A stretch of DNA of 47,388 nt from NCBI GenBank assembly GCA_025057135.1, contig JANWXY010000074.1, forward strand, positions 1 to 47,388, in the 5' to 3' direction. A model generated the notes under the pieces. It saw nothing but the letters and a program-made list of their open reading frames with translations, was not told the origin of the DNA and ran no database searches. The stretch comes from Bacteroidia bacterium (GTDB taxonomy: Bacteria; Bacteroidota; Bacteroidia; SpSt-205). The stretch's first letter is position 1. Every line of letters starts with the position of its first letter. Shown piece after piece: positions 44,107 to 47,355 of this stretch. A program made the translations under genes and the position numbers.

Positions 44107-44114
44107 TACTTTTG
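44107..44114 (+). promoter_or_regulatory. -7 promoter element TACTTTTG of the tRNA-Val/tRNA-Thr/cytochrome unit
   Basis: Exact TAnnTTTG match, 9 nt before the mature 5' end of tRNA-Val, leaving only a very short 5' trailer for RNase P. Confidence 0.6.
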
Positions 44115-44123
44115 TTCTCCATC

Positions 44124-44197
44124 GGGAACTTAGCTCAGGGGTTTAGAGCGCCTGCCTTACAAGCAGGAGGTCGGTGGTTCGATTCCACCAGTTCCCA
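44124..44197 (+). tRNA. tRNA-Val (anticodon TAC)
   Basis: A complete 74-nt cloverleaf. The 7-bp acceptor GGGAACT/AGTTCCC has discriminator A44197. The D stem is GCTC/GAGC, and anticodon stem CCTGC/GCAGG holds loop CTTACAA (anticodon TAC). The T stem is GGTGG/CCACC with loop TTCGATT. No CCA is encoded; the next tRNA begins after a single nucleotide. Confidence 0.97.
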
Positions 44198-44198
44198 C

Positions 44199-44270
44199 GC
44201 CATCTTAGCTCAGCGGTAGAGCAGCTGATTCGTAATCAGCAGGTCGGCGGTTCGAGTCCGCCAGATGGCT
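44199..44270 (+). tRNA. tRNA-Thr (anticodon CGT)
   Basis: A complete 72-nt cloverleaf. The acceptor GCCATCT/AGATGGC has discriminator T44270. The D stem is GCTC/GAGC, and anticodon stem GCTGA/TCAGC holds loop TTCGTAA (anticodon CGT). The T stem is GGCGG/CCGCC with loop TTCGAGT. No CCA is encoded. The GTG of the cytochrome gene is 1 nt downstream. Confidence 0.97.
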
Positions 44271-44271
44271 C

Positions 44272-45939
44272 GTGCGCTGGGGCATATTTTTTCTCAGCCT
44301 CGGGGTGGCTCTTTATGTATCTTGTCAGAAAAGCGCCATTTCTTCGCCTGACTCACCTCATTACGTGGGAGATAGCGCCTGTCAGTCCTGCCATGCGGAT
44401 ATTGTAAAGGCATATCAAGCTACTTGGAAAGCGCATTCTCTTGTACCCATTACCAGTCAGCTTGAACGAATAGAAAATTTCGCCCAGTCAGCGGTATATG
44501 ATAAGCACACAAACTTCTATTACCGCGCGGTCTGGGAAGGGGACTCCCTTTTCCTATATGAGTATCGTCTGCAAGGAAAAGACACGACATACCTGCGTCG
44601 GGAACGCTTAGACTTTGTCATCGGCTCAGGGCACCAGACCCGTTCATATCTCCTATGGCGAAACGGTTTTTTATATGAAGCGCCTCTGACATGGTATGTA
44701 CAGCCCCAGAAATGGGACCTCTCCCCGGGCTATGCGGATGGAAAGAATAGCCGATTCAGCCGGGAGATTCAGCCGCCTTGTCTAAGCTGTCATGCGAGCG
44801 GCTGGGAAGCTATTCCTTGGACATACAATCAATACCGCCAGATAGGCGGAGCTATCGGTTGCGAATCTTGCCATGGTCCTGGTAGCTCTCACATACAGAA
44901 TCCTCAGGACACCAGCTACTGGTGGAGCCGCTGGACCCCAGCTCAGCAAATGGATGTATGCAGCCGTTGCCATTTGGAAGGCATCGCCGTAGAAAAGCAA
45001 GCCGGCTGGAAGCCCAAAGAGAGTCTCTCCAAATACTGGGCGATATTCCTTCCAGAAAGAGCCGAACTGGGGCAGTTTGGAATCGCTTCACATGCTGAAC
45101 GGTTATTGCGCTCTGCTTGTTTTCAGAAAGGCAAAGCGACCTGTACGACCTGTCATAATCCTCATCCCACTCAGACGGTTCTTTCGTACGAAAACCGCTG
45201 CCTAAGCTGCCATCGTACAGGCTGCAAAAATCCTAATCATGCTTCCACCGGCTGTGTAGGCTGTCACATGCCCAAAGGAAAATCCAGTGACATTCCTCAT
45301 ACTCGCTTTACAGACCATTACATCCGCGTAGTGAATGCCGCTAAGATAGACTCGCCTAAGCACCCCAAGCTTATTTGTGCAACGGAGAAGAACCCTGACT
45401 CTACCCTCATCGCCCATGCCTACCTGAAATGGTACTCCGAGGATAAACCAGAACCGTGGGTTTTAGAGTATGCTTTGAGTTACCTCCCCAAAAACAAGGC
45501 ACCCGAAATACAAGCCCGAGCCTATCTCTTAGCAGGGGATTATCGCCAAGCGCTGCCCTTAGCGGTCCAAGCCCTCCAAACCGACACTACCCTAAACTTG
45601 CTGGAGATGTATGCTTATCTTTTAGAACTAACAGGTCAAGTTGACCGTGCTCTAAACGCTTGGGCGGAGCTGAAACGGCGAGCTCCGGCTTATCCCGAAG
45701 CGCAGTTTAGATATATCCTTCTCGCTTTTCAGAGTGGGAAGCTCAGCCCTCAGTCGGCCTATGAAGAGATGGTCAGCTTGACTCGTATTCAGCCATGGAA
45801 TGCACAGTTTCACTATAATGCCGCCGTACTTGCAGGTATTTTAGGGCGACGAACAAATGCTAAACTCCATCTACAATCGGCATTGGCTTATGAACCTGAC
45901 TACCAAGCCGCTATTGAAGCGCTTAGAAGGCTTCCATAA
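44272..45939 (+). CDS. multihaem cytochrome c with C-terminal TPR repeats
   Basis: This exported 555-residue electron-transfer protein has seven CxxCH haem-attachment motifs. They begin at Cys37 (CQSCH), Cys170 (CLSCH), Cys197 (CESCH), Cys230 (CSRCH), Cys291 (CTTCH), Cys310 (CLSCH) and Cys328 (CVGCH). The N-terminus MRWGIFFLSLGVALYVSC is a lipoprotein-like signal, though Tyr at -3 is unusual. Residues about 385-555 are TPR-like repeats. The layout resembles the cytochrome c554-type multihaem/TPR proteins. GTG 44272 is needed to keep the signal peptide. No separate -7 element is seen, so the gene seems cotranscribed with the two tRNAs. Confidence 0.9.
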   Translation: MRWGIFFLSLGVALYVSCQKSAISSPDSPHYVGDSACQSCHADIVKAYQATWKAHSLVPITSQLERIENFAQSAVYDKHTNFYYRAVWEGDSLFLYEYRLQGKDTTYLRRERLDFVIGSGHQTRSYLLWRNGFLYEAPLTWYVQPQKWDLSPGYADGKNSRFSREIQPPCLSCHASGWEAIPWTYNQYRQIGGAIGCESCHGPGSSHIQNPQDTSYWWSRWTPAQQMDVCSRCHLEGIAVEKQAGWKPKESLSKYWAIFLPERAELGQFGIASHAERLLRSACFQKGKATCTTCHNPHPTQTVLSYENRCLSCHRTGCKNPNHASTGCVGCHMPKGKSSDIPHTRFTDHYIRVVNAAKIDSPKHPKLICATEKNPDSTLIAHAYLKWYSEDKPEPWVLEYALSYLPKNKAPEIQARAYLLAGDYRQALPLAVQALQTDTTLNLLEMYAYLLELTGQVDRALNAWAELKRRAPAYPEAQFRYILLAFQSGKLSPQSAYEEMVSLTRIQPWNAQFHYNAAVLAGILGRRTNAKLHLQSALAYEPDYQAAIEALRRLP

Positions 45940-45957: not shown

Positions 45958-47355
45958 GTGCAGCGTTACGATCTCGTCATTATTGGTAGCGGGCCTGGTG
46001 GCTATGTAGCTGCCATACGCGCAGCCCAACTCGGCTTATCGGTCGCTCTCGTGGAACGTTATCCCAGCCTTGGTGGAACTTGCCTGAATGTCGGCTGTAT
46101 CCCCTCTAAAACCCTTCTGGACTCCTCTGAGTTGTACTACGAAGCTCAAAAGCATTTCTCCGAACATGGGATTTTTATAGAAAACCTTTCCCTAAGCTGG
46201 GAAAAGATGCTCGCCCGAAAAAGCCAAGTCGTAAAACAGACAGTTGGCGGGGTAGAATACCTAATGAAAAAAAATAAGATAGAAGTCTTTCACGGACACG
46301 GACGCTTCATCTCCGCTAATGAAATCGCTGTAGAAGGTGGTCCGACCCTCTACGGCAAATACATCATCATCGCCACTGGCTCTAAACCTGCCAGTTTGCC
46401 TCATATTTCTATAGATAAAAAGCGCATCATCACCTCCACAGAAGCACTGAGCCTGAATGAACTTCCACGGCGCTTAGCTATCATCGGAGGTGGTGTCATA
46501 GGCGTGGAGATGGCTTCTATTTTCGGACGATTGGGTACAGAAATCACGATTATAGAGTATTTAGATAGGTTACTGCCCGGGATGGATGCCGATGCTGGGG
46601 AAGAGGCTCGGAGGATTCTCACAGCAGATTATGGTGCAAAAATTCTTTTAGGACATAGCGCCCAAAGTGCTGAGGTCAGGGAGGAAAGAGTGTATCTCAC
46701 AGCTGCCCCACGCGCAGGCGGAAGTACCATCAACATAGAAACCGATTACGTACTGGTAGCTGTGGGACGGCGCCCTTATACGGACGGATTAGAGCTTGAA
46801 AAGGCAAGCTTAGCGGTAGATGAGCGGGGACGCATCCCTGTAAATTCGCAGCTCCAAACCGCTGTACCACATATCTATGCTATTGGCGACGTCATACAAG
46901 GGCCTATGTTGGCCCATAAAGCCTCGGAGGATGGAATTTTCGTAGCAGAGCAGCTCGCTGGACGAAAGCCACATTTAGATTATTTACAAGTTCCCTCAGT
47001 CGTGTATATCTGGCCGGAAATCGCTGGAGTTGGCTACACGGAAGAAATGCTTCGGCAAGAGGGACGCCCCTATCGCACAGGGAAGTTCCCTTATAGAGCC
47101 TCGGGACGAGCGAGAGCCGCTCACGAGACTCGGGGCTTTGTGAAAGTAATAGCTGATGCTAAGACCGACTTGCTTCTCGGCATGCATATTGTAGGTCCGC
47201 GGGCTGCTGACTTAATCGCCATTGGAGTGGCGGGATTAGCCTACGGGGCATCAGCGGAAGACATTTTTAGATTGCCATTAGCTCACCCTACCTTTAGCGA
47301 AGCGCTGAAAGAAGCCGCACTCGCCGCGAGTGAAGGGGGACCTCTGCATCTGTGA
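45958..47355 (+). CDS. lpdA: dihydrolipoyl dehydrogenase (E3)
   Basis: This FAD flavoprotein reoxidises dihydrolipoamide in the 2-oxoacid dehydrogenase and glycine cleavage complexes. The 465-residue protein has the FAD motif LVIIGSGPGGYVAA, redox-active cysteines Cys42 and Cys47 in GGTCLNVGCIPSK, and the NAD-binding IGGGVIGVEMASIF. The second FAD motif is IYAIGDV, and the C-terminal catalytic dyad is H443/E448 in HPTFSEAL. No E1 or E2 gene is in the window. Only 33 bp of sequence follow it, with no feature seen. Confidence 0.96.
   Translation: MQRYDLVIIGSGPGGYVAAIRAAQLGLSVALVERYPSLGGTCLNVGCIPSKTLLDSSELYYEAQKHFSEHGIFIENLSLSWEKMLARKSQVVKQTVGGVEYLMKKNKIEVFHGHGRFISANEIAVEGGPTLYGKYIIIATGSKPASLPHISIDKKRIITSTEALSLNELPRRLAIIGGGVIGVEMASIFGRLGTEITIIEYLDRLLPGMDADAGEEARRILTADYGAKILLGHSAQSAEVREERVYLTAAPRAGGSTINIETDYVLVAVGRRPYTDGLELEKASLAVDERGRIPVNSQLQTAVPHIYAIGDVIQGPMLAHKASEDGIFVAEQLAGRKPHLDYLQVPSVVYIWPEIAGVGYTEEMLRQEGRPYRTGKFPYRASGRARAAHETRGFVKVIADAKTDLLLGMHIVGPRAADLIAIGVAGLAYGASAEDIFRLPLAHPTFSEALKEAALAASEGGPLHL

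Follow-up and report, generated by a model that had tools for sequence, protein, structure and literature searches.

Where can an mRNA begin when the start codon of its gene lies a single nucleotide behind a tRNA gene? This question was raised by the 47,388-nucleotide stretch of DNA analyzed here (the window; Bacteroidia bacterium, GTDB lineage SpSt-205, GCA_025057135.1, contig JANWXY010000074.1, positions 1 to 47,388), in which the initial annotation had noticed the order tRNA-Val, one nucleotide, tRNA-Thr, one nucleotide, GTG of a seven-haem cytochrome gene, with no encoded CCA, no room for a leader, and no −7 element other than the one before tRNA-Val. It had inferred that the RNase Z cut freeing tRNA-Thr would leave an mRNA with a 1-nt leader, tying cytochrome expression to tRNA synthesis and processing. 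Both tRNAs were found by ARAGORN and by Rfam, and the following features were assigned:

44107..44114 (+), −7 promoter element TACTTTTG (TAnnTTTG), with the predicted transcription start at about 44119
44124..44197 (+), tRNA-Val(TAC), no CCA encoded; C44198 follows the discriminator
44199..44270 (+), tRNA-Thr(CGT), discriminator T44270, no CCA encoded
44271..44271 (+), a single C (position 74) between tRNA-Thr and the start codon; predicted cleavage at 44270|44271 (RNase Z, after the discriminator) or at 44271|44272 (after C74)
44272..45939 (+), seven-haem c554-like TPR lipoprotein cytochrome, start codon GTG
45958..47355 (+), dihydrolipoamide dehydrogenase-like gene 18 nt downstream, possibly on the same transcript; this partner is variable in relatives

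The observation was thereby confirmed to the base. The ORF encodes 555 amino acids with seven CXXCH motifs and a lipoprotein signal (MRWGIFFLSLGVALYVSC); the Cytochrome_C554 profile matched above its cut-off, but over one stretch only. The reading frame is closed 39 nt upstream by a TAA inside tRNA-Thr, with no start codon in between, which rules out an upstream start and makes GTG 44272 the first usable one. A downstream start was also rejected, because the next in-frame GTG (+33) would cut the lipoprotein signal and all relatives keep the first start. tRNA-Thr folds as a cloverleaf next to tRNA-Val (z −3.6), and the only TAnnTTTG at the locus is the one before tRNA-Val.

That the junction is not a matter of chance was shown by comparing 60 related genomes (near relatives are uncultured "Bacteroidia bacterium" genomes such as KatS3mg025). 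Nine of the ten sampled congeners carry the cytochrome (protein identity 59–69% to the window), and the tenth, in which it was not found, is 81% complete. In those nine and the window, that is, in 10 of 10 same-genus genomes carrying the gene, the tRNA-Thr discriminator is followed by exactly C and GTG (in one case C and ATG), with the same N-terminus and lipobox; seven CXXCH motifs were present in 10 of 10 same-genus homologues. In a second genus of the family, the sequence is CTT followed by GTG (a 3-nt gap), and tRNA-Val is absent, but a TATCTTTG stands before tRNA-Thr. A TAnnTTTG element also lies before tRNA-Val in every relative in which that stretch could be read. The gene after the cytochrome changes between species (lipoamide dehydrogenase in some, another gene in others), whereas the tRNA–cytochrome link does not. 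Homologues outside the family have no adjacent tRNA. An assembly artefact was rejected, as the junction was recovered from ten further genomes, one of them a single 2.27-Mb contig.

The arrangement is not special to the cytochrome. All tRNAs of the window's genome and then of three congeners (the four genomes are referred to as G000, G005, G002, and G010) were read with their 3′ flanks, start codons were scanned directly next to each tRNA, and orthologous junctions were matched by BLAST. Of the tRNAs not followed by another tRNA, 12/28, 12/34, 13/34, and 13/32 abut a start codon 1–8 nt after the discriminator, about a third, compared with 0/25, 0/10, and 0/11 (0 of 46) in three leadered Bacteroidia controls (G052, G047, and G033; 12/34 versus 0/46, Fisher 9e-6). 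Gene calls for these statistics were mechanical, and the control sample is small (three genomes plus one Flavobacterium). A simple comparison of CDS–CDS with tRNA–CDS gaps using a naive longest-ORF caller was too noisy, because over-long ORFs overlapped tRNAs, and was replaced by the direct scans. At least 13 orthologous junctions were found, most with identical leader length across species. Start positions counted from the discriminator, in the order G000, G005, G002, G010 (a dash where not seen), were: Thr(cgt)-cytochrome 1,1,1,1; Val(cac)-dxr 1,1,1,1; Met-osmC-like 1,1,1,1; Ser(tga)-fbp 1,3,1,1; Leu(tag)-tig -,1,1,1; Trp-secE 2,2,2,2; Arg(tcg)-rplY 2,2,2,2; His-DUF2480 2,2,2,-; Phe-phoD-like 3,3,3,3; Gln-prsA 4,4,4,4; Leu(taa)-small protein 4,3,4,4; Thr(ggt)-beta-barrel 2,-,4,3; and Asp-ligA 7,7,8,1. 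Family models confirmed the identities, and for Dxr and Fbp they begin at residue 1–2, which supports the start codons; tig rests on a weak partial match (50 bits, cut-off 180). The partners are mostly housekeeping genes, so that the idea of a link specific to electron transfer was rejected. At tRNA-His and tRNA-Trp of G005, the encoded CCA overlaps the ATG of the downstream gene (CC-ATG), so the A of CCA would be the A of the start codon.

Outside the genus, 8/15 such tRNAs abut an ORF in the second genus, with partly different partners (purK-like, an ATPase-like gene), and 3/14 in the next family of the order, including a tRNA-His 4 nt before a gene resembling histidyl-tRNA synthetase (hisS), which would place a tRNA and its cognate synthetase in one unit (these names were given by eye). 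In Flavobacterium araucananum, the count was 1/23, a 60-codon ORF.

Do the junction genes have promoters of their own? For 50 junctions in four genomes, the best match to TAnnTTTG 3–9 nt before the start codon was 1 to 3 of 6 positions, less than at random positions, and no full element lies inside any of these tRNAs; only this motif was scanned. Most junctions have an element starting 12–19 nt before the tRNA, and several others lie behind a partner tRNA that carries the promoter. In the four genomes, promoter elements mostly sit 7–9 nt before tRNA position 1, implying 5′ leaders of only about 3–5 nt for RNase P to remove.

The spacing of promoters suggests that the lineage is leaderless in general. 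In F. psychrophilum, TAnnTTTG spans −12 to −5 (PMC9723704), so that +1 lies four nucleotides after the G. In 40 stretches of G005 (13–20 kb each), 138 of 213 TAnnTTTG elements near ORF starts lie 3–8 nt before the start codon, with a peak of 59 at exactly 4, which by this geometry puts +1 on the start codon. In a control Bacteroidia genome, it was 12 of 107 (Fisher 3e-21), and altered motifs showed no such peak. In the window itself, 8 of 11 elements have this spacing (11596, 36718, 39044, 6467, 1419, 15937, 28701, and 41180). Start codons at spacing 4 are ATG in 45, GTG in 13, and TTG in 1 case, so that the inferred +1 is A or G in 58 of 59, largely because ATG and GTG supply it. By inference, most promoter-proximal genes with this element have leaders of 0–4 nt, the same range as most tRNA junctions would have after cutting. 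Published maps of Bacteroidota give 5.5% leaderless mRNAs in F. psychrophilum (PMC9723704) and 3.7% of 5′-UTRs under 10 nt in B. thetaiotaomicron, which makes this lineage unusual in that respect as well.

The enzymes required for excision appear to be present. RNase Z-like genes were found in six of six genomes (262–284 bits, just under the curated NCBIfam cut-off of 293), full length, with HxHxDH, and with B. subtilis RNase Z (1y44) as the best PDB match. RNase P RNA was found in four of four genomes, and a PF01743 nucleotidyltransferase of the CCA-adding type in four of four, although this Pfam family also includes poly(A) polymerases. CCA is encoded in only 0/40, 3/44, 0/45, and 2/45 tRNAs, but C74 in 37/40, 43/44, 40/45, and 42/45. 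That C74 encoding is special to this lineage was rejected, because it holds in control Bacteroidia (e.g., 34/34) and Flavobacterium (33/33), too; Bacteroidia tRNA genes almost always encode C74 but not C75 and A76, which hints at a 3′ maturation that keeps C74 or at a trailer preference.

The reading that best accounts for these data, with a probability of roughly 0.74, is tRNA punctuation in a bacterium with leaderless mRNAs. In this view, one promoter before tRNA-Val transcribes tRNA-Val, tRNA-Thr, and the cytochrome gene as one RNA, from which RNase P and RNase Z cut out the tRNAs; the RNase Z cut at the 3′ end of tRNA-Thr would leave an mRNA with a 5′ monophosphate beginning at 44271, with a leader of one nucleotide, or at 44272, with none, if the cut follows C74. 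A cut after C74 is conceivable because S. coelicolor cuts most CCA-encoding tRNAs between the two Cs (PMC4681348). Ribosomes of this lineage, which appear to start mostly on leaderless or near-leaderless mRNAs, would then initiate on the 5′-terminal GUG, and the same design would serve about a dozen other genes. A 5′ phosphate helps leaderless translation in E. coli (PMC9031893), and GUG works in several leaderless species (PMC4633059). The sequence comparison itself establishes the gene order, the conserved spacing, the lack of own promoters of the scanned type, the leaderless promoter geometry, and the presence of the enzymes; co-transcription, the cut and its position, the resulting mRNA 5′ end, and initiation on it are inferred from sequence alone. 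UUG starts fit this view less well, being over-represented at junctions (11 of 50, ten of them at +1) compared with primary leaderless genes (3 of 138), although the Fisher value of 4e-5 overstates the difference because orthologues are not independent. They occur exactly one nucleotide after the discriminator at dxr, tig, and osmC-like, and in G000 and G005 dxr has no other canonical start nearby. As UUG does not support leaderless initiation in mycobacteria (PMC4633059), either the processed end permits what RNA polymerase cannot provide, or these partners start differently. Furthermore, the predicted 5′ end of the processed cytochrome mRNA has a moderately stable hairpin from about nt 4 (−14.2 kcal/mol, z −0.4), and a 5′-monophosphate mRNA could be decay-prone.

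The interpretation in the initial annotation is partly supported: its mechanism is well supported by comparison, whereas the cut is inferred. Two findings that would have spoken against it, an own promoter of the cytochrome and homologues starting at a downstream codon, were looked for as far as sequence allows; no own promoter of the TAnnTTTG type was found, and all homologues in the family start at the same codon with a lipobox. However, the arrangement is genome-wide and, thus, not a cytochrome-specific regulatory link, and because C74 is encoded in nearly all tRNAs of the class, the cut might leave no leader at all.

Other explanations appear unlikely. Genome compaction alone could have brought coding sequences up against tRNAs, with the uncleaved read-through transcript being translated by internal, SD-independent initiation next to the folded tRNA. 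Same-strand CDS–CDS gaps are indeed short (median 9 nt in G005 versus 52 in G052, from the noisy ORF calls mentioned above), Bacteroidetes do not need SD sequences (PMC6847099), and the UUG starts at junctions resemble leadered initiation. Yet the acceptor stem ends 2 nt before the start codon, leaving no unpaired leader, there is no upstream translation to couple to, the nucleases that must free the tRNA are present, and junction leaders match the 0–4 nt inferred for primary mRNAs. Still less likely is a separate promoter inside the tRNA gene, or one not of the TAnnTTTG type, giving the cytochrome its own primary leaderless transcript. Alternative sigma factors do use other elements (PMC9723704), which the scan for one motif would have missed. 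However, matches at all 50 junctions are lower than random, and tRNA sequence is under its own constraint, so that about a dozen independent hidden promoters are improbable. Moreover, the +1 would be C, or U at several UUG partners, although primary leaderless starts in this genome are ATG or GTG in 135 of 138. Least likely is that RNase E/Y-type cuts downstream plus 3′ exonucleases, a route established in E. coli (PMC4681348), mature the tRNA at the expense of the mRNA, so that both come from alternative fates of one transcript. Exonucleolytic trimming would destroy the mRNAs of secE, tig, ligA, and prsA, and the lack of CCA favors the RNase Z route.

The closest counterpart is the tRNA punctuation of animal mitochondria, in which tRNAs lacking encoded CCA directly abut coding sequences, RNase P and RNase Z cuts define mRNA 5′ ends, and mRNAs are leaderless or nearly so. 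Here, by contrast, the setting is a 2-Mb bacterial chromosome with many promoters and only about a dozen junctions, the mRNA lies on the 3′ side of the tRNA, RNase P RNA is of the bacterial type, RNase Z of the ElaC type, and the cut is inferred. Leaderless mRNAs of Actinobacteria and Deinococcus-Thermus likewise have a promoter element a few nucleotides before the start codon and AUG and GUG starts, but the element here is the Bacteroidota −7 element TAnnTTTG, and some 5′ ends would come from tRNA processing rather than from transcription initiation. In the dicistronic tRNA-sRNA genes of Nanoarchaeum equitans and plants, the RNase Z cut at the tRNA 3′ end creates the 5′ end of the next RNA (PMC3491384), which there is a C/D box sRNA and not an mRNA. 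Bacterial operons mixing tRNA and protein genes, such as thrU-tyrU-glyT-thrT-tufB of E. coli, share the co-transcription of tRNA and mRNA, but there the mRNA keeps a leader with a ribosome-binding site, whereas here no leader would be possible after the cut. No report of tRNA excision making leaderless mRNAs, or mRNA 5′ ends genome-wide, in bacteria was found in the open-licence literature searched.

A more far-reaching reading, which remains tentative, is that a free-living bacterial lineage uses tRNA excision as a regular way to make mRNA 5′ ends. RNase Z would then be an mRNA-maturation enzyme for housekeeping genes (secE, tig, ligA, prsA, dxr, and rplY), with the cut after C74 giving exactly leaderless mRNAs that begin at AUG, GUG, or even UUG, a U start that RNA polymerase rarely makes, and the supply of these proteins would be tied to tRNA output.

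If punctuation is indeed what occurs, the rule by which animal mitochondria cut their transcripts at tRNAs also operates on a bacterial chromosome, which would show that leaderless translation opens the way to it and that it can arise without extreme genome reduction. It would also make RNase Z a direct determinant of mRNA production for housekeeping genes, and mark a Bacteroidia lineage with unusually common leaderless mRNAs in a phylum where they are rare.
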